IMG/VR virus record: IMGVR_UViG_3300028008_000047
Location: 1 to 36,368 of that record
DNA length: 36,368 bases
Source: a virus
Reading direction: 5' to 3' (one strand)
The stretch's first letter is position 1. Each line of letters begins with the position of its first letter. The notes under the pieces were generated by a model. It searched no databases. It was given only the letters and a program-made list of their open reading frames with translations, and was not told the DNA's origin. Positions 14,500-27,735 of the stretch are shown here, piece by piece. The position numbers and the translations under genes are program-made.

Positions 14500-15282
14500 T
14501 TAGTCTTTAATTTCAGCTAAAAGCTGGTCAAAGCTCTCACATAGAATGTTTTCAAAGTTATCGCCCCAATGACCATGAATAATCATATGAATTCTGTTTT
14601 CTGTACCAGTATTATATACTGAATGCAATCTACCAATATCAATTGCTCTAGCATCGCCTACTTCCCAAGGTACTATTCCTGCATCTTCCATACAAAACTT
14701 TACTCCTGGAGGATTACTAAGTGCTACATTAAAGGCTGCTAAGTTTCTTTCTTTAAAATCCAAATGTGGACTGATAAAACCACCCGGTTCTAATAGCATA
14801 AATCTAACTCTTTGATATAATTTAAACGGCCATACATTTTTAAGCCAATTTACTGTTACTGGACACTTATCTGCAATTTCTGTCCAGCCAAATTCAGGTC
14901 CTTCGCCTTCTTTCCAAGCGCCTTCTTCAACGTAGAAATTATCCGGTTGTGTTTTATCCCATCCTTGACCGTGAACAACTATACTGCTCCAGCCTGGATT
15001 TATATCACCTCGGTGTTTTACATAATCACCTAAAAATTGCTCTGCTTCTTTTGCCATTTGTTCATGTGGCACATCTAATTGCATCTTTAATGTAGGGCAA
15101 TTAGCTTGATTCATTATCCATCTCGAATATGGTATTTTTTGTTTTTTATCTGTTTTCCAATTTAAGAATTCTTCGGGAGGTAATGCCATATTTTTATAGT
15201 GAGGAATATCACCATGTTCTTTTAAGAACTTTGTTACCTTTGCTAATTGTCTAATTCTTATTTCTTCTTTGTCTTGTTCCAT
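14500..15282 (-). CDS. Asp/Asn beta-hydroxylase-like 2OG-Fe(II) oxygenase
   Basis: A 260-aa protein with a complete active-site set of the aspartyl/asparaginyl beta-hydroxylase family: RVRFMLLEPGGFISPHLD with H173-x-D175, EVGDARAIDIGRLHSVYN with distal H220, and R230 ten residues later for 2-oxoglutarate. Expected reaction: oxidative decarboxylation of 2-oxoglutarate coupled to hydroxylation, usually of a protein side chain. The first 150 residues are an unrecognised, Trp-rich region. It overlaps the upstream 493-aa gene by 25 bases and is the last gene of the late unit 16732-18198 / 15258-16739 / this gene, so it may act with the two paralogues. The substrate is unknown. Confidence 0.82.
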   Translation of the reverse strand: MEQDKEEIRIRQLAKVTKFLKEHGDIPHYKNMALPPEEFLNWKTDKKQKIPYSRWIMNQANCPTLKMQLDVPHEQMAKEAEQFLGDYVKHRGDINPGWSSIVVHGQGWDKTQPDNFYVEEGAWKEGEGPEFGWTEIADKCPVTVNWLKNVWPFKLYQRVRFMLLEPGGFISPHLDFKERNLAAFNVALSNPPGVKFCMEDAGIVPWEVGDARAIDIGRLHSVYNTGTENRIHMIIHGHWGDNFENILCESFDQLLAEIKD

Positions 15283-16739
15283 TTAAATAACTTTCCTATA
15301 TTCCACGGTGCAATTTTATCCCACTCTGGCATTCTATCAATGTGATGTTGTATCCAATTATATCCACCAGCTTCTCTAGCCGGGCATGTTGAATATACTA
15401 ATATATCATTATTATTATCATTATTATAATCATATTTATATATAGCATGTAATAATTCTCTATGGATTTTATATCTTTCTTCTAATGTATACCATTTGGC
15501 TGTAACTTCATAGTGAAATATATTACTCAAATGTACATAAGTTGACCCTTTTAAGTTGGGTCGGCATTTTGCAGCAAATTTGTCATGCTTGTGTGTATTA
15601 AGCAAGTTCTGATGATAATAGTTTATGTTTAGTTTAGGGAATACTGTACGATACCATTCTAAAAATCCTTCTTCATATATCTCATTCAAATGTTGTTCTG
15701 TATATTCTATTTGTTTAATACCTTTAAAGTATTCAAATTTACTATCATATTGTTTAAACTCAGTTCCATCCCACTTTCCTACTCTACTATCCATAAAGTT
15801 ATTTGCAAACTTTTTAAAATCAGTTCCATCCCATTCTTCAATTATCTGTTGCATACACCCTAGTGCATATCTACTTACATCATATATCCATAATGTATCA
15901 CCTGCTGTTAATTTTTTATCAAATGCAAAGAATATAGGAGATATTCCAGATGCTGGAGCAACTACTTTAGTAAATTTTCTAACTGGTGTGTCTTTGGGTG
16001 GTACAACATTTCTGCCATTTTCTGTATTGGCTATAAAGAAAACATTTGGATTAGTAATTGTTAATGTTTCGTGTATGTTTCTAAATCCATCTTGCTTAAC
16101 TTCTCCATACGTATACCCTTTTGATAATCTGACATCCTCGTTCCATGATATTATTTTATGATTATCTCTTAGAAGGTGTTTTACTATATTCCACCCAGTT
16201 TGTTTTCCTGTATATGTTCTTAAATTACTACCAGGGCCTACCCAATGTGGTGTGTATCCATCATGATGATTGTTTTCACTACGTATTGGTTCTGGAAGCT
16301 GATACGGTTCAACATCATCTTCGTCGTTTCCCCATTCTGGCTTACCTGCCGACTCCCACCATTCTAGATCAATTAAAAAGCATTGTTGATGTATTGAATA
16401 ATAATCATCTTCTTTGTCTAGTATATGTCCAATAAATTTAGCATCTAGATTTTCTTCATAAAATGTAGGAAACTGTTCTTCAAATTCGTTTAATATAATA
16501 CCCTGTTTAAATACAACTATCTTTTTAAAACCATTGCTAATTGCTTTTTCAAATAAATCTACAATTTTCTCTTCTGCATATTGTTTATTACAAAAGAATG
16601 ATAATTCAATAGACCAAAAGTCAAGTGTGGCTTTTGAATAATGCTGTAAATAGTCAGTTTTTATACTATTATTATAAAGCCAACCTATACATAGTTCTTT
16701 GCTTTCGGTTTTGTTTCTCCACCAGTCTTTTTTAAACAT
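15258..16739 (-). CDS. unknown 493-aa protein, paralogue of its upstream neighbour
   Basis: Clearly homologous to the 488-aa neighbour over its length: shared SKELxxGWLYNNSIK near the start, FKKIVVFKQG, FIGHILDKEDDYYSIHQQ, the GYTPHWVGPG element, FFIANTE, VAPASGISPIFFAF, then LWIYDVS and LSNIFHY. The N-terminal 150 residues loosely recall glycosyltransferase-like domains (FIGHILD, IHQQCFLID). The later part looks Rossmann-like (acidic D after a beta strand, then SNIFHY), as in some methyltransferases. Neither is firm. The start overlaps the previous stop by 8 bases. The C-terminus ends in Lys-rich KWNKTKKK. Confidence 0.82.
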   Translation of the reverse strand: MFKKDWWRNKTESKELCIGWLYNNSIKTDYLQHYSKATLDFWSIELSFFCNKQYAEEKIVDLFEKAISNGFKKIVVFKQGIILNEFEEQFPTFYEENLDAKFIGHILDKEDDYYSIHQQCFLIDLEWWESAGKPEWGNDEDDVEPYQLPEPIRSENNHHDGYTPHWVGPGSNLRTYTGKQTGWNIVKHLLRDNHKIISWNEDVRLSKGYTYGEVKQDGFRNIHETLTITNPNVFFIANTENGRNVVPPKDTPVRKFTKVVAPASGISPIFFAFDKKLTAGDTLWIYDVSRYALGCMQQIIEEWDGTDFKKFANNFMDSRVGKWDGTEFKQYDSKFEYFKGIKQIEYTEQHLNEIYEEGFLEWYRTVFPKLNINYYHQNLLNTHKHDKFAAKCRPNLKGSTYVHLSNIFHYEVTAKWYTLEERYKIHRELLHAIYKYDYNNDNNNDILVYSTCPAREAGGYNWIQHHIDRMPEWDKIAPWNIGKLFKWNKTKKK

Positions 16740-18198
16740 TTTTATTCCACTTTAATAGCTTCTGTAAATAATTATCAGGAATTTCTGTGAATTTATCCAT
16801 TTCTTGTTTATCAATCCATACTAAGTTTGGATGTGTAAGAGTTCCACGTGATGATAACACTAAAACATTATTTTGATATGAACTATCTTTTATTTTGCCC
16901 ATTAGTTCATTATGTAATTCCCATCTTTGCTGTAAGCTGTAATAAAATGAAGTAGGTAGGTAATGAAATATGTTACTTAAATAACAAAATGTTATTGGGT
17001 GTCGTAATCTATCTGTTTTAAACGAATTAACAAATCCTTGATATGTATTTGGATCAAATATATTAATTGGCAAATAAACTACTTCAATTTCAGGTAACAC
17101 ATTGGTTATCCATTCTTGAAATCCACGTTCATTTAGTTTATCAAATACTTCTTGTGTATGTGGTAACTTATTTTTACCTCTAAAAATATCTCTTTGATAT
17201 TTTTCATCTGGTGCTAACTGATTCATTAGATCAGTAGCAAATTTTTCGTAATTAGTTCCATCCCATTTTTCAATAATTGTCTTTGTGATGTTAATAGCAA
17301 ATTTACTAATATCATAAACAAGTATTTTACTGTATTTGTCGCATCCTAATTCAAATGCATATATTAACGGTGTTAACCCTGCGGCTGGTACAACTAGTGT
17401 ATCCCATTTTTCATCCCATTCTGGGAATTGTAATTTTCTTCTTTCAACTTCAAGATGAATATCTCTTAAAGGCTCTGTATTAGCAATAAAAAATATATCT
17501 AAATCAATTTGCTCCATAACACCGGATAAGTGTCTAGGTCCATCTTCTTTTATTTCTGGATAAGAATAGTGTTTTTCATCTCTAATATTTTTATTCCAGG
17601 ATACAATTCTTTGTTGATCATCTAATAAACTTTTTACTAAATTCCAACCCGTATGTTTTGCATTATATGTTTTATTATTTTTACCTGGTCCAATCCAATG
17701 AGGTGTATAATCGTCATGCCAGTTAGAAATACTCCTAGCAGGTTCGATTGCTTCTAGTGGTTTATTTTCTGGTGAGCCCCATGCTGGTTTGCCTGCTTTT
17801 ATCCACCAATCAACATCAATCATAAATGCTTGTGGATGTAAAGAATAATACTCGTCACCTTTATCAACTATATGTCCAATAAAAGTTGCATCTTTATTAT
17901 CTTCATAAAACTGTACAAACTGTTCTTTAAAATTAGATAAAGGAGTTGTTCCTTGTTTGAACACTAATATCTTTTTATATTTCTTCTCAACTGCATCTTC
18001 TAACAAACCTTCTATAGTATCATTGGCCATTTGTTCGTGGAAATAGAATCCCAATTCCATTGACCAATAATCTGTTAAGTTTTTAGTGTATCCTCGAGCG
18101 AAGTCATCTTTAATGCTATTGTTATATAGCCAGCCAAACCCTAATTCTTTTGATTTGCTTTTATGTTGCCACCATTGATGTCCAAACATGTTTAACAT
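16732..18198 (-). CDS. unknown 488-aa protein, first of a tandem paralogous pair
   Basis: A tandem duplicate of the next gene, with the same conserved blocks: KELGFGWLYNNSIKDD, KKILVFKQGTTP, FIGHIVDKGDEYYSLHPQ, DYTPHWIGPGKN, FFIANTEPLRDI, VVPAAGLTPLIYAFELG, ILVYDIS and YLSNIFHYLP. FKQG...GHI.DK.D.YYSLHPQ.F.ID is reminiscent of a glycosyltransferase-like domain. AAGLTPLIYAFELG followed by an acidic strand end suggests a nucleotide-binding Rossmann-type part. I do not assign a function. No membrane segment is seen. The late promoter at 18221-18229 and AAAGGAA before the ATG place it in the late class. Confidence 0.82.
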   Translation of the reverse strand: MLNMFGHQWWQHKSKSKELGFGWLYNNSIKDDFARGYTKNLTDYWSMELGFYFHEQMANDTIEGLLEDAVEKKYKKILVFKQGTTPLSNFKEQFVQFYEDNKDATFIGHIVDKGDEYYSLHPQAFMIDVDWWIKAGKPAWGSPENKPLEAIEPARSISNWHDDYTPHWIGPGKNNKTYNAKHTGWNLVKSLLDDQQRIVSWNKNIRDEKHYSYPEIKEDGPRHLSGVMEQIDLDIFFIANTEPLRDIHLEVERRKLQFPEWDEKWDTLVVPAAGLTPLIYAFELGCDKYSKILVYDISKFAINITKTIIEKWDGTNYEKFATDLMNQLAPDEKYQRDIFRGKNKLPHTQEVFDKLNERGFQEWITNVLPEIEVVYLPINIFDPNTYQGFVNSFKTDRLRHPITFCYLSNIFHYLPTSFYYSLQQRWELHNELMGKIKDSSYQNNVLVLSSRGTLTHPNLVWIDKQEMDKFTEIPDNYLQKLLKWNKNV

Positions 18199-19521: not shown

Positions 19522-20259
19522 TTATCCTATCACAAAACCTAAACCTGTACTTCCATCGTTGTATAATGTTAGTTCAATTTCAAGTTTATCAATCTCTGCC
19601 TGTGCATCTGCTCTAAGTTGATCTGCGTTCATTGTAGTACCACCTTGTGGTCCTGCAATCTGTGTAAATTTACCACGTGCTTCTGATAGTATTAGTTTAG
19701 CATGAGCAAATGCATAATCCTTTAACCAAGGACCTGCATATGTATCTTCTAATAGACTTTCTGTTGGTCTATAGTTGTAGCAATGCAATACTGCATTGTC
19801 ATTTGCTTTAATCTTACGTTGTAAAATTAACCTTTTATCTTGTGGACGCCAAGTAAACATTATTTCAGCACCAAATAGTCTACCCATTGTTTCTCTATTT
19901 TGTTGTAAGAAATCAAATGATGCTAATCCACCATTTCTACTACTTCCTAATAGATATGTATTAATATAAGCGGCTTGGAATGGTTCTATATCGTTACCTG
20001 TTCCACTACTTACACCAGTTGTTCTACGATAAATGTCACGAACTTCCATTACTTCATCTGGTAAAGTATATTCACTCTGATCTTTTATCATATCTAATAT
20101 AATAAAACTTTCCTCAACTGCATTTTCTGCACGTTGTCTATACTTTGATAAAGATTTGTCTATTGCTAGCTCATAATGTTCTGGATCTAGCTCAACATCA
20201 ATCATTCCACCACCTAGGCGAAGTTCTATTTCTTTTTGAAGTTTGTTTGATGCACTCAT
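19522..20259 (-). CDS. 13: neck protein gp13
   Basis: A 245-aa protein (T4 gp13 is 309 aa). With gp14 it forms the neck that closes the packaged head and joins the tail. The N-terminus KLQKEIELRLGGGMIDVELDP corresponds to T4 [20 protein letters not shown]. The C-terminus WLKDYAFAHAKLILSEARGK...QADAQAEIDKLEIEL corresponds to the T4 WVKDYATALAKELNGQIL...LIEEARLEKEALREEL region. The final GFVIG resembles T4 GILVG. AGGAG precedes the ATG and a late promoter is at 20282-20290. gp14 is 5 kb away on the other strand, unlike T4. Confidence 0.9.
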   Translation of the reverse strand: MSASNKLQKEIELRLGGGMIDVELDPEHYELAIDKSLSKYRQRAENAVEESFIILDMIKDQSEYTLPDEVMEVRDIYRRTTGVSSGTGNDIEPFQAAYINTYLLGSSRNGGLASFDFLQQNRETMGRLFGAEIMFTWRPQDKRLILQRKIKANDNAVLHCYNYRPTESLLEDTYAGPWLKDYAFAHAKLILSEARGKFTQIAGPQGGTTMNADQLRADAQAEIDKLEIELTLYNDGSTGLGFVIG

Positions 20260-22967: not shown

Positions 22968-24173
22968 TTATTTTGATTTATAATGAATTAATTTGTCATA
23001 ATATAGTGCTAAGGTAGCCCATATTGCGTCTGGATACAAGTTAGTATACTTGTTTCCCATTTTATGATAATTTTTCCATACTGTTTTACTTGCATCAAAC
23101 TTACTGTAGTATTTCCAAAATTCTGTATCAGTTCTATCGCTTAACATATAATGATGTTTTATATATGTACTATTATCATTCCATACATTACGCATTGCTC
23201 TATTGTACGTATTAGCTCCATAGCCACGTTGTAAGCACCGTACAAGCGTTGTTATGCTGAATTGCGTCATAAACAATGCATTACTTTCCAAAGGGTCTAT
23301 AAAGCCGTTACTAAGCCCTACTGCAACTACATTATCATGCCAAGGATTAGATAGAACACTAGGATTCCATTTTAATAGTCTAGGACTTTTTCCCATAAAG
23401 GGAGTTCTGTGTGCATTTACTTTATTAAATTCTGCAAGTGCATCTTCGTCTGTTTGATGTTTACTACTAAACACATAACCTGTTCCAATTCTATTTGTTA
23501 AGTCAATAATAAATTGCCAACCGTTGCTACGTGCTACGCTTTGTGTATATCCTTGTACATCGCTGTCTTGTAATTCAAAAGGACACACCCATGCTTTATC
23601 TACTAAATGATGTTCAAGTGTTACTTCTGTATTATCCTTTACAAACTTTCTACGGAAACCTGTACAATCTAAATATAAATCATATCCCTCAGGTAACTCG
23701 TCTAAAGTGTCTATAATATGTGTTACATTTTTACAATTGTTTTTAACTATGTCGCCTGCTTTTTCAGCATCTAAGTGATAAGCAGTTGCTTGCCAACCAC
23801 CTTTATGATATAGTTGATCATTAATATTGTGCTTATCTACTTTGCCGGAATCATATTGTTGCTTCCATTTATCAAATACATTATTATCATTAAACCAAAA
23901 TGTAAATGCAAATTCATCTCCACCTGGTTTATTCCATTGACTTTTTATATTGCCAAATTTCTTTTGTGCATTACTTTTTTCCATCCACTCATCTTCAGAC
24001 ATTCCCATGTCTTCAAAGAATTGTGCAATTTGAGGTAATGTACTTTCACCTACACCTATTATAGGAATATCACTACTTTCAATAAGTGTGATATCATAAT
24101 CTGGGAATTGTTTTTCTAAATAGCCTGCAGCCCACCAACCTGTAGTTCCGCCGCCAATAATACAAATTTTCAT
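22968..24173 (-). CDS. flavin-dependent (tryptophan) halogenase-like protein
   Basis: A 401-aa protein, shorter than PrnA-type halogenases (about 500 aa). FAD-binding GGGTTGWWAA is at 7-16, GVGESTLP at 40-47. A Lys pair at 71-72 (NAQKKFG) is where the catalytic Lys of PrnA lies. DCTGF is at 169-173 and FIDPLESNAL, with Glu near 296, resembles the PrnA Glu/Ser site. The family hallmark WxWxIP is replaced by WQFIID at 219-224, though the following RIGTGYVFSS is conserved. It may be a divergent halogenase or another flavin monooxygenase; no separate flavin reductase is seen. The gene stands alone between a consensus late promoter and a terminator. Confidence 0.83.
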   Translation of the reverse strand: MKICIIGGGTTGWWAAGYLEKQFPDYDITLIESSDIPIIGVGESTLPQIAQFFEDMGMSEDEWMEKSNAQKKFGNIKSQWNKPGGDEFAFTFWFNDNNVFDKWKQQYDSGKVDKHNINDQLYHKGGWQATAYHLDAEKAGDIVKNNCKNVTHIIDTLDELPEGYDLYLDCTGFRRKFVKDNTEVTLEHHLVDKAWVCPFELQDSDVQGYTQSVARSNGWQFIIDLTNRIGTGYVFSSKHQTDEDALAEFNKVNAHRTPFMGKSPRLLKWNPSVLSNPWHDNVVAVGLSNGFIDPLESNALFMTQFSITTLVRCLQRGYGANTYNRAMRNVWNDNSTYIKHHYMLSDRTDTEFWKYYSKFDASKTVWKNYHKMGNKYTNLYPDAIWATLALYYDKLIHYKSK

Positions 24174-24236: not shown

Positions 24237-25208
24237 TTATTTTTCTTCAATTAGTCTTTCAAACTCTCTCAAACGTTTATATACGCTTGCTAGTTCAATA
24301 ATAGTAGGCCATGCTTTAAGTATATATTGCATTGAACCTTCTACTCTGCCAAAAGCTCTAATAATTTGTTGCATTACACCTAGTGTTACAACACCTGCTA
24401 CAATAGCTGGTGCTAAGAACACATAAGCACTTAATACATTTGCTTGTAAATATGAAATTCTACCTATATTAAAATACAAGTATCTAATATAAGATTTAAA
24501 GTGAATACTTCTTACATCATGGAATAATTCATCAATTCTCTTAGGACGAATTGTTACATCATCTTCTGCAATTACAAGTATCTTCCTGTAAGCTGCTTCT
24601 TTCTTTTGTAAATCATATTCTACTCCAACTAGACGTAATAACCAACCTAATCCAATTAAGAATATTGTTCCTCCAATACTCCAAACTAAAGCACCAGTTA
24701 CTAGTCCATATTGCCAATCACCAAAAAAGAAGATTGGAATACCAACTGATAGTCCTAACAGAATAGGAACAAATTGTACTAGAACCATTACTGATTCAAT
24801 TAAACTTGTACCAAGTCCTTCCATAATACGACTAAACTTAATAGTATCTTCTTGTACACGCTGAGCTGCGCCTTCAATGGTACGTGCTTTATCGTATACG
24901 CTATGATACCATTCAACCATTGCTGCTCTCCAACGGAACAAATAGTGTGCAGTAAAGTAACTAACAACTACGGCAATCAAAACATAAATTGCAGCCAAGT
25001 AAATAAAAGTTCCTAAACTACTCCAATATTCAGTAATTGTAATAGCGTTTGGTGCACCAAGTGCTTTTTGAATCATATCGTAAAACTGTCCAAACCATTC
25101 GTTAATTTTAACGTCAATTTGAACTTGTATCCACAATGAACTTAAAATAACAGCTGAACCCAGCCACGACCATAATCTCCATTGTTTTTGTGTGAAAAAT
25201 CTAAACAT
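24237..25208 (-). CDS. SbmA/BacA-type peptide transporter
   Basis: A 323-aa inner-membrane protein. Its core closely follows E. coli SbmA (406 aa): FRWRAAMVEWY and IEGAAQRVQEDTIKF (111-125), FVPILLGLS, YGLVTGALVWSIGGT, KKEAAYRK, AEDD, YFNIGRISYLQ, APAIVAGVVTLGVM and VYKRLREFE. Hydrophobic segments lie near 13-30, 63-92, 135-162, 168-195 and 255-283. There is no Walker motif, as expected: SbmA/BacA are proton-driven dimeric importers of peptides and peptide antibiotics. Relative to SbmA it lacks the first roughly 80 residues, including N-terminal membrane sequence. It stands alone with its own late promoter and a hairpin, between gp13 and gp14. Confidence 0.93.
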   Translation of the reverse strand: MFRFFTQKQWRLWSWLGSAVILSSLWIQVQIDVKINEWFGQFYDMIQKALGAPNAITITEYWSSLGTFIYLAAIYVLIAVVVSYFTAHYLFRWRAAMVEWYHSVYDKARTIEGAAQRVQEDTIKFSRIMEGLGTSLIESVMVLVQFVPILLGLSVGIPIFFFGDWQYGLVTGALVWSIGGTIFLIGLGWLLRLVGVEYDLQKKEAAYRKILVIAEDDVTIRPKRIDELFHDVRSIHFKSYIRYLYFNIGRISYLQANVLSAYVFLAPAIVAGVVTLGVMQQIIRAFGRVEGSMQYILKAWPTIIELASVYKRLREFERLIEEK

Positions 25209-25251
25209 TTTCTTTTCCTTATATAAAATGTAGAATTAACTACATACATAT

Positions 25252-25260
25252 CTATTTATC
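25252..25260 (-). promoter_or_regulatory. T4-type late promoter of the SbmA-like gene
   Basis: GATAAATAG on the minus strand, about 44 bases before the transporter start, with AAGGAAAAG before the ATG. It is back to back with the gp14 promoter on the other strand. Confidence 0.8.
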
Positions 25261-25283: not shown

Positions 25284-25292
25284 CATAAATAC
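25284..25292 (+). promoter_or_regulatory. T4-type late promoter of gp14-gp15
   Basis: CATAAATAC followed by AATATAACAAGG on the plus strand. It shares its downstream sequence with the gp19 promoter. The AAGGA just after it serves as ribosome site for gp14. Confidence 0.82.
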
Positions 25293-25312: not shown

Positions 25313-26377
25313 ATGCCAAGATTAAGTTTATATAAACCATTTAAAGGTAACGACTATAAGTTTATGGATCACGCAATACGTGAACAATTCGATATAGGCG
25401 GTACTGGAATACACGTACACAAGTACCTAGGACCAGATCCTAAAAGAGATAGTAAAGATCCTAGTGAGCCTAATTATGGCAGTGGACTTGAGATTGATAA
25501 TATTACAGGCGAAGAAATTAATCCTGAAGGTTTAATTGACGAAACAAACATACAAGACTTACTATTCATGGAAAACAGAGATCGTAAATACGATCCTGAT
25601 GTATTTGAACTACGTGGTGTATACAATGTTAGTGACAATGACTTTGATTTAACACAATTTGGATTATTTTTAACAAACGATACACTGTTTATTAGTTTTC
25701 ATATTAATGATATGGTAGAACGTATGGGTCGTAGACTTATGCCAGGTGATGTAATTGAACTACCACATTTACGTGATGAATTATTACTTACAAACGACAG
25801 AGATGCTATTAATAAGTTTTATGTTGTACAAGATGCCGCAAGAGGAAGTGAAGGTTTTTCACAAACTTGGTATCCACACATTTGGCGTGTTAAAGTAGCA
25901 CCACTAACAGATACACAAGAATACGCAGATATACTTGGTACTGCTAATGATCCAAATAGTCTTAAAAATGATATCAGTGCATACAAAACAGAACTTAATA
26001 TTAGTAATGCTATTGTAAAAAGTGCTGAAGCAGCAGATCCGTTAGGATTGCCATTAGCTGATCATTTATTTGGCGTAGACAATAATACTAATGAATACAA
26101 TCACGGAGAATCACTAGAACAAGGTGATCAATTTCCAGTTGTACCAAACGAAGGCGATTATTTTGTAAGAACAGATTTTACACCTAATAGACTTTTTGTG
26201 AGACGAGGTAACAAATGGCATAGACTATATGATAATGTTACTGATCAAACATGGAGTGATAGAACATATAATGCAAGTAGCTTTATCAATAATAATGCTA
26301 CTACAGTTATTGACGATAAAGAGTTTCCTGAAAAGCAAGCACTTAGTCAGGTAATTAAACCAAAGAGTGATTTTTAA
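25313..26377 (+). CDS. 14: neck protein gp14
   Basis: A 354-aa protein (T4 gp14 is 256 aa). With gp13 it makes the neck/head-completion complex. The central region, FGLFLTNDTLFISFHIND followed by RRLMPGDVIELPH, aligns in pattern with T4 FGMQVQDEVTLSINP...EPKEGDLIYFP. The N-terminus (MPRLSLYKP) and Gly/Asp-rich 35-60 region look like the marine T4-like form. Residues 279-308 (EGDYFVRTDFTPNRLFVRRG, then KWHRLYD) are an extra module like those in the sheath. The next gene is gp15, as in T4, but both are on the opposite strand from gp13. Confidence 0.83.
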   Translation: MPRLSLYKPFKGNDYKFMDHAIREQFDIGGTGIHVHKYLGPDPKRDSKDPSEPNYGSGLEIDNITGEEINPEGLIDETNIQDLLFMENRDRKYDPDVFELRGVYNVSDNDFDLTQFGLFLTNDTLFISFHINDMVERMGRRLMPGDVIELPHLRDELLLTNDRDAINKFYVVQDAARGSEGFSQTWYPHIWRVKVAPLTDTQEYADILGTANDPNSLKNDISAYKTELNISNAIVKSAEAADPLGLPLADHLFGVDNNTNEYNHGESLEQGDQFPVVPNEGDYFVRTDFTPNRLFVRRGNKWHRLYDNVTDQTWSDRTYNASSFINNNATTVIDDKEFPEKQALSQVIKPKSDF

Positions 26378-26379
26378 TA

Positions 26380-27735
26380 ATGGCACAACAATACTTTTAC
26401 GATAAACAAATTAGAAGATACATTCAACAGTTTATAAGACTGTTTAGTGGATTCAGTGTCGAAATGGGTAAAAACGATCAAGACTTATCTATATTTCAAC
26501 AAGTACCTGTACGTTACGGAGACATCAACAGAATGGCTGCACACATAACAAGAGAAAACAGTGAAAATATTATCAATACTGTTCCATTTATAAGTTGTTA
26601 TGTAACTTCATTAGATATGCTACCAGAAAGACGTACATACCAAGATCATGTTGATAAGGTTCAAGTTTTTGAAAAGAAATATGATAACGAAACCGGAGAG
26701 TATACTAATGAACGAGGCAATAGCTATACTGTTGAAAGACATGCACCCGTTCCTTACATGCTACAAATGAATTGCGACATTTGGACTTCAAATACAGATC
26801 AAAAATTACAGTTAATGGAACAAATATTAGTATTATTTAATCCTACATTAGATATAAGAACAAACGATAGTCCAATTGACTGGACTGCATTAAGTCATGT
26901 AGAATTAACTAATACAACGTGGAGTACTAGAAGTGTAGGATCAAGCATAGATGATATTATTGATGTTGCAACTTTAAGTTTTAATATACCAATACATATT
27001 AATCCTCCAGCTAAAGTTAAACAACAAAAATTAATTCATACAATTATAAGTGAATTATATAATTTAGATGACACAAATTTAGACTTGTTCAGAGAAGAAA
27101 AGTCTTTTGATACGCAAACATTACAATATACTATTGTAACATACGAAGATAGAAAAGTGAAATACGAAGATGGAACTTTACAATTATTAAATGCAAATGG
27201 GCAAAAACTTGACAACGATGGTTTAATACTAGACTGGACAAAAGAGTTAAAACCCTTTGGTGTATTAAGAACTGGAATAAGTCAATTAAGGCTTAGAAAA
27301 AATTCAGTTACAAATCCTAAATCAGACGATATAATTGGTAAACTTGATTTTCATCCTAGTAACCCAAATCTATTAACAGTTGATGTAGATCAATCAACTT
27401 TACCAACAAACACACTAACGGCTGTAAATGCTATTTTAGATCCAGTTATTAATTATCCTGGAGATGGAACAGTACCAGCTGCCGTACTAGGACAACGATA
27501 TATTTTAATTAACGATACTCCTAGTAATCAGTTGTTAAATGTTGTTGCACACAAATATGATATTATTGAATATAATGGTTCGGCATGGAATGTAAGTTTT
27601 GATGCTTCAACAACTATAGACACTCAATATGTAACTAATGTGGCAAGTAACGACCAACTTGAATGGAACGGCAAAGAGTGGGTTAATAGTTATGAGGGAA
27701 TTTACAATGCAGGATTCTGGAGACTCTATCTCTAA
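26380..27735 (+). CDS. 15: proximal tail sheath stabiliser gp15
   Basis: A 451-aa protein (T4 gp15 is 272 aa). It caps the tail and joins it to the neck. The first 220 residues follow the T4 order: YFYDKQIRRYIQQFIRLFSG, PVRYGDINRM, ENIINTVPFISCYV, PYMLQMNCDIWTSNTDQKLQ then LMEQILVLFNPTLDI, and a PIHINPPAKV strand. The extra about 200 C-terminal residues are not in T4 and include a module of the shape LGQRYILINDTPSN...YDIIEYNGSAWNVSFD, related to surface repeats in gp18 and gp14. It starts 2 bases after the gp14 stop, so it shares the promoter at 25284. Confidence 0.88.
   Translation: MAQQYFYDKQIRRYIQQFIRLFSGFSVEMGKNDQDLSIFQQVPVRYGDINRMAAHITRENSENIINTVPFISCYVTSLDMLPERRTYQDHVDKVQVFEKKYDNETGEYTNERGNSYTVERHAPVPYMLQMNCDIWTSNTDQKLQLMEQILVLFNPTLDIRTNDSPIDWTALSHVELTNTTWSTRSVGSSIDDIIDVATLSFNIPIHINPPAKVKQQKLIHTIISELYNLDDTNLDLFREEKSFDTQTLQYTIVTYEDRKVKYEDGTLQLLNANGQKLDNDGLILDWTKELKPFGVLRTGISQLRLRKNSVTNPKSDDIIGKLDFHPSNPNLLTVDVDQSTLPTNTLTAVNAILDPVINYPGDGTVPAAVLGQRYILINDTPSNQLLNVVAHKYDIIEYNGSAWNVSFDASTTIDTQYVTNVASNDQLEWNGKEWVNSYEGIYNAGFWRLYL

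Follow-up and report, generated by a model that had tools for sequence, protein, structure and literature searches.

The virus record IMGVR_UViG_3300028008_000047 of IMG/VR encodes a membrane transporter of the SbmA/BacA family. The whole stretch analyzed (36,368 nucleotides) is called the window below, and the gene lies in an open reading frame (ORF) at positions 24237..25208 on its minus strand. Its protein belongs to this family and keeps the residues of the proton pathway, and the gene occupies a fixed place on phage genomes, is under purifying selection and has undergone exchange of alleles. With modest confidence, we consider that it encodes a working proton-driven importer, made late and taking in peptides or similar solutes.

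Family assignment of the transporter

The gene starts with ATG and encodes 323 residues; its translation and profile matches identified it as an SbmA/BacA-family transporter gene of the form without the TM0 segments. The Pfam profile PF05992 (SbmA_BacA) matched the window protein at positions 1-314 of 315, thus over its whole length (E 3.6e-138, 460.8 bits, cut-off 24), which bears out the SbmA/BacA-type transporter proposed in an earlier note made from the DNA alone. A second, weaker Pfam match was to ABC_membrane_2 (E 2.1e-09). Escherichia coli SbmA in the PDB matched with E 1.5e-88 (query 4-320 on SbmA 77-393), and in an alignment with full-length E. coli SbmA 145 of the 321 aligned residues were identical (45%). 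The window protein scored 429.7 bits against the NCBIfam short "putative transporter" equivalog NF009036 (positions 1-323 of 326), above the cut-off of 385, and 363.8 bits against NF008306 (SbmA proper), below the equivalog cut-off of 492. Judged by these profiles, it is a TM0-less member of PF05992 and not SbmA itself.

The protein ends with its transmembrane domain and has no nucleotide-binding domain fused to it, and no ABC ATPase was found among nine other window proteins scanned with Pfam. A weak match of residues 104-305 to phrog_11436, a phage family with no function assigned (E 8.5e-06, 26.5 bits), indicates that distantly similar phage proteins are already catalogued. Structure prediction was a check proposed in the earlier note, but the AlphaFold models built from alignments of 30 and 58 sequences were too weak to be used as evidence (mean predicted local distance difference test scores of 57.9 and 53.8). 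A Foldseek search with the first model gave two matches at E under 0.001, both of them SbmA chains; these were carried by sequence, as the template-modeling scores were 0.36-0.37 with a root-mean-square deviation of 12.9, and they were not used either. A simple hydropathy scan gave five segments above threshold, compared with six core helices in SbmA, and was too crude to use.

Residues of the proton pathway

According to the available part of PMC13316013, SbmA has a ladder of six glutamates (E193, E203, E269, E276, E287 and E378) and a gate tyrosine (Y368), and becomes inactive or impaired on loss of any ladder glutamate. The equivalents in the window protein were E120, E130, E197, E204, E215 and E305 for the ladder and Y295 for the gate. 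All seven residues were conserved throughout an alignment of 81 viral and 80 bacterial sequences, and again in 71 of 71 distinct viral copies in a wider alignment. A SLiPT that is intact, has the full glutamate ladder and lacks an ATPase should import solutes with protons.

Native length of the transporter

The earlier note had described a likeness to SbmA without about the first 80 residues. The likeness stands, and the three motifs quoted for it were all present in the translation, but the missing part is somewhat smaller: M1 of the window protein aligns with SbmA residue 73, which leaves about 72 residues, the TM0a/TM0b part, without a counterpart. As far as the alignments indicate, only this peripheral TM0 part is missing, and the closest bacterial relatives of the protein, from SAR11 and other marine groups, lack it too.

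Matching stretches of the transporter numbered 195 in viral contigs, where the earlier note had suggested looking for relatives, and 517 in bacteria; the best 80 of each were analyzed. All 80 viral copies were 321-324 residues long with an ATG start, and none had more than 20 open codons ahead of the ATG (nine in the identical copy L002). The bacterial copies whose match spanned the start (77 of the 80) were 323-336 residues long; this range does not cover L128, L135 and L148, where the match began at residue 9 and the start was not set. Since the bacterial relatives share the length and so few open codons precede the viral ATGs, a truncated or dominant-negative SbmA was rejected. The length is native and NF009036 matched above its cut-off, which leaves unsupported the earlier suggestion of a shortened SbmA that dimerizes with and alters the SbmA of the host.

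Location on phage genomes

The window also matched UvsX, UvsY, terminase, tail tube, sheath and head-tail adaptor. Its terminase shared 56.5% identity with PA5oct-like phages (284-288 kb) and 48-51% with Atu_ph07 and Phosso, and the relatives of the virion protein encoded next to the transporter (phrog_11591) were similar ones. The phage belongs to the T4-type myoviruses and is a relative of the PA5oct-like jumbo phages.

Loci carrying the phrog_11591 virion gene at the transporter were defined as lineage A. The two genes formed this junction with no more than 300 bases between them in 56 of the 80 viral contigs and with a 1.7-kb spacer in three more, and the other 21 had other contexts. In the reciprocal search from the virion protein (best 80 of 513 relatives), the transporter gene lay at most 300 bases away on the opposite strand in 69 loci; five loci had no transporter and six were too short. 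The window is a 36-kb fragment, and one sister contig with the same junction spans 204,772 bp, not necessarily its complete genome. An assembly chimera was rejected because the junction recurs across contigs, including this long one. A chimera with a bacterial contig was what the earlier note had named as fatal to its claim of a gene truly on a phage, and that claim held.

A second, unrelated phage context, called B1, was compared in 10 loci. Its gene order differed and included genes for S-adenosylmethionine synthetase, an exonuclease, an AMP-binding enzyme and a halogenase. One of its records (G003) marks it as phage by matches to tail-fibre, baseplate and head-decoration proteins, which were seen in this record only. 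T4-type terminase and sheath were each found in none of the 13 lineage-B records searched; the 14th record of this search belonged to lineage A and matched both. In a third group (L014, L032, L076, L077, L309 and others) the context differed again, and these contigs are viral by IMG/VR classing only.

Selection and exchange of alleles

Between the window and 13 chosen sister loci, the transporter gene showed nonsynonymous divergence (dN) of 0.014-0.103 and synonymous divergence (dS) of 0.14-1.34, with ratios of about 0.07-0.12; these are rough, as the larger dS values are near saturation. The neighboring virion gene gave similar ratios (about 0.08-0.15). Amino-acid identity across the sisters was 87-98% for the transporter and as low as 65% for the gp15-type protein. 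The transporter is under purifying selection. It has the sequence features of an auxiliary metabolic gene, namely a bacterial homologue, a viral contig, an intact frame and purifying selection.

In a first quick tree of near relatives the bacterial rows stood almost together, with three changes. A careful tree built from 54 representatives, 36 of them viral, had the rows from viruses and bacteria interleaved, and at least four changes of the viral label were forced by starred branches. A single viral clade of all rows was rejected by the approximately unbiased (AU) test (p 0.0005), and a single-clade test on a 26-row subset named after the tree had been seen gave p 0.0019. The sampling of bacteria favored sequences close to the window protein. 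A re-check tree left out the 10 "other" rows, from contexts with neither the virion gene nor B1 markers; forced changes persisted but the rejection of a single clade became weak, so that several transfers between viruses and bacteria are likely, not proven. In this re-check, holding lineage A by itself in a single clade gave p 0.0001, which may be explained by B1 rows placed among lineage A. One of the "other" rows, L320, pairs with a Pelagibacter copy, L099.

When the transporter type (one of two types, or absent) was mapped on a quick tree of 57 virion proteins, nine changes were needed, at least three of them forced by starred branches for either type; the two types were defined after the first tree had been seen. 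The interleaved transporter tree and these nine changes suggest that the insertion site tends to stay while the transporter allele gets replaced.

Upstream signals and timing of expression

Just ahead of the ATG lies a ribosome-binding-site-like sequence, AAGGAAAAG (25212..25220, minus strand), with the same letters in the sister intergenic regions of L002, L004, L009 and L010. The motif ATAAATA, the core of the T4 late promoter, occurs upstream of the transporter (25253..25259, minus strand) and upstream of the divergent virion gene (25285..25291, plus strand), as putative late promoters. Among 23 distinct intergenic regions, 21 had it before the virion gene and nine before the transporter (single-base shuffle mean 3.03, maximum 7 in 200 shuffles). 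Of 39 distinct upstream regions from lineage A, 26 had the shorter TAAATA at -70 to -20 (mean of 6.0 and maximum of 12 in dinucleotide shuffles) and 14 had ATAAATA (shuffle mean 2.3, maximum 6). In bacterial upstream regions TAAATA occurred at the chance level (10 of 78, with 10.5 expected). Within the window, 11 of the 14 minus-strand ATAAATA sites, including those of sheath, tail tube and adaptor, and one of the three plus-strand sites lay at most 120 bases upstream of one of 36 chosen ORF starts; these are raw counts with no shuffle. The promoter-like motif makes late expression, as assumed in the earlier note, probable for lineage A only; B1 and the other contexts lack the motif.

Bacterial relatives and probable hosts

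The window protein shared 82-86% identity with the 80 nearest bacterial copies. In the SAR11 family, the genomes with a member of the transporter family carried copies at 81-86% identity to the phage protein (8 genomes), at 52-56% (15) or at 35-45% (77). Three distinct short SbmA-like types occur in SAR11-family genomes, for example L261, L259 and L264. In the SAR11 genome HTCC9565 the transporter gene lies between genes for NDUS4 and a glpX-type fructose-bisphosphatase. As the nearest bacterial relatives are such bacteria, the phages are probably marine and their hosts SAR11-type bacteria.

Proposed function and alternative explanations

The following course of events would account for these observations. 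A phage lineage would have acquired the transporter gene from bacteria and then exchanged alleles. In lineage A the gene would be switched on together with the virion genes. The protein would probably form a homodimer in the inner membrane, where the proton gradient would power the entry of periplasmic solutes, small peptides or hydrophilic molecules like them, into the infected cell. The phage copy would add to the host's own, and the amino acids, nitrogen or peptide-like cofactor gained may feed virion production. We counted in favor of import that, according to the available part of PMC12753301, 10 of 14 host transporter genes with changed expression were up in one pelagiphage infection and 26 of 38 in another. 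A xanthine/uracil-type permease and a sodium:solute symporter were also encoded in two of three B1 records searched and fit an uptake theme.

Several observations weigh against a late-made importer of peptides. The permease and the symporter were found neither in seven lineage-A records (at least 76 kb) nor in two others searched, so the uptake theme rests on the two B1 records. TAAATA at -70 to -20 was absent from all six B1 and all nine other viral upstream regions, and ATAAATA preceded 10 of 78 bacterial copies (shuffle mean 4.2, maximum 10). Among three sequences of the SAR11 type that is most common, one lacked the last ladder glutamate and all three lacked the gate tyrosine. Only generic neighbors surrounded the gene in the phages and SAR11, giving no clue to the cargo. 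A family member was present in 100 of 117 sampled SAR11-family genomes; since most hosts of this kind would already have one, an extra copy must bring a benefit that covers its cost. When only phage rows confirmed by their context were kept, five changes were counted, two of them forced by starred branches, and one clade was rejected weakly (p 0.032). Host genes that were lowered in infection were primarily transporters, chaperones and folding catalysts, again according to the part of PMC12753301 available.

A different benefit of import would be tolerance, with the transporter clearing the periplasm of envelope-damaging peptides (bacteriocins or host-defence-like peptides) and so keeping the cell alive until lysis. 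Such clearing is thought to be a BacA-type role, as for BacA and nodule-specific cysteine-rich (NCR) peptides (PMC12003926, part of the text), and allele swapping at one site would fit shifting peptide threats. We regard this as unlikely, as there was no sign in this analysis of such peptides threatening the hosts within one infection cycle, and the same import would heighten sensitivity to peptides with internal targets. A comparably small chance is given to import of a single hydrophilic, cofactor-like compound and not of peptides in general. The structurally related Rv1819c of Mycobacterium is a cobalamin transporter (PMC13316013, available part), and in one viral contig the transporter gene directly follows a coproporphyrinogen III oxidase gene (L014:9206-10972). 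This neighbor is one context only, and neither in the window nor in the SAR11 genome examined was a cofactor gene recognized next to the transporter.

The phage protein may instead alter the host transporter through mixed dimers, or merely replace host copies during host shutdown. SbmA and BacA are homodimers, as stated in the same part of PMC13316013, and mixed dimers are conceivable because identity between the phage protein and bacterial copies reaches 86% in the SAR11-family sample. This is rather improbable, since the phage protein is not a truncated form and the 35-45% identical type is the only one in 77 of the 100 SAR11-family genomes that had a match. That the gene is a neutral passenger, a mobile host gene of no benefit to the phage, would agree with its apparent movement between virus and bacterium and between viral contexts, but is very improbable in view of purifying selection, intact frames in 80 of 80 copies and retention at one site. 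The chance of bacterial contamination or a chimeric assembly is negligible given the recurring junction. It is in the named-phage collection (50,697 records) that a point in its favor arises, as the one inspected of four transporter matches there sits in a bacterial-looking contig. This contig (L338, CAKLQH020000002.1, 254 kb) is filed as "Acinetobacter phage", and has genes of bacterial type (threonine dehydratase, gatB and pepO) within 13 kb around sbmA.

Import of peptides or similar solutes could have wider consequences, although we put these forward only tentatively. Marine jumbo phages might carry a proton-driven peptide importer as a near-core late gene and keep drawing new copies from a stock common to them and to SAR11, SAR116 and other marine bacteria. 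Infected cells would then be peptide scavengers living partly off the lysate of their neighbors, and the phages would be vectors spreading the transporter among the commonest heterotrophs of the ocean.

Neighboring genes and other loci

On the right the transporter has a fixed neighbor, the gene of the phrog_11591 virion structural protein (25313..26377, plus strand, 354 residues; PHROG match and locus comparison), followed by that of a T4 gp15-like tail sheath stabilizer (26380..27735, plus strand, 451 residues; PF16724, E 9.2e-27, and PHROG). The gp15-type gene expected by the earlier note at this flank was thus found, but the name "gp14" for the phrog_11591 gene was not confirmed. The other flank holds a tryptophan-halogenase-like gene (22968..24173, minus strand, 401 residues; Pfam, PHROG and locus comparison), and the nearest head-tail adaptor match (19522-20259; phrog_211, "Ad2") is about 4 kb away. 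This left-hand neighbor is variable. Many lineage-A loci with the transporter have no halogenase beside it, so a functional link between the two is unsupported. The halogenase shared only 59-67% identity with those of L008, L010, L017 and L049, where most neighboring genes were more similar (94-100% in L008), as if it too had been swapped in place.

Further left lies a conserved phage gene (21022..22314, minus strand, 430 residues). Its homologue adjoins the virion gene, with 16-94 bases between, in the transporter-less sisters L241-L243 and L248; in L240, also without transporter, a plus-strand ORF of 390 residues takes this place. Two adjacent ORFs at 15258-16739 and 16732-18198 (493 and 488 residues) had no PHROG match. 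The first also matches the place of the second in the sister contig L003 (46% identity), and the pair is a probable tandem duplication.

In the B1 records with both importer and permease, L249 (1659-3146) and L341, a sodium:solute symporter gene was present. At L067:51-1343, phrog_27398 is labeled "tail protein" and the gene product is a xanthine/uracil-type permease by Pfam; the label is likely a misannotation. In six B1 loci (L021:15815-18889, L067:15105-18166 and four more) a gene for an AMP-binding (adenylating) enzyme, assigned by Pfam for the L067 copy, directly precedes a tryptophan-halogenase gene. The pair looks like a small unit for amino-acid activation and halogenation.

Significance and comparison with known systems

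No report of SbmA in a phage was found in the literature searched, which was mostly open-access and may hold passing mentions, and the novelty is provisional. A 2025 survey places SbmA/BacA primarily in Hyphomicrobiales and Enterobacterales, and a term search of its main text found no mention of phages, viruses, Pelagibacter or SAR11 (PMC12003926). The precise physiological function of SbmA is described as unclear in the available part of PMC13316013. SbmA/BacA is a known entry door for peptide antibiotics into bacteria, and the family described here is common in the SAR11 family and retained by phages under purifying selection. This retention makes the natural cargo testable as whatever the infected cell gains. 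An intact importer copy beside tail genes suggests that phages alter the uptake of infected cells from their surroundings, and if the hosts are SAR11-type, phage infection would be tied to the uptake of dissolved organic nitrogen at sea.

With E. coli SbmA and Sinorhizobium BacA (SLiPT family, PF05992) the window protein shares the whole profile, 45% identity to SbmA, the six-glutamate ladder, the gate tyrosine and the lack of an ATPase domain. It differs from them in having no TM0a/TM0b, in scoring below the cut-off for SbmA proper and in being phage-borne, and from BclA and YddA in having no nucleotide-binding domain. It falls in the same length class as NF009036 (PRK12369) and the SAR11 and SAR116 relatives, the NF009036 score being that of the window protein only; theirs is a bacterial chromosomal gene, whereas that of the window is phage-borne and preceded by a late-type motif. 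PA5oct-like and Atu_ph07/Rak2-like jumbo phages have the closest terminase and similar virion-protein relatives, but no transporter match among their records in the named-phage collection, and the window lineage comes from metagenomes, without an isolate.

Phage auxiliary metabolic genes of the transport class include the phosphate-binding pstS of cyanophages and the ammonium transporter of algal viruses. The gene described here is likewise a host-type uptake gene kept by a virus, and differs in that it would encode a complete peptide-type importer, predicted to be driven by protons.
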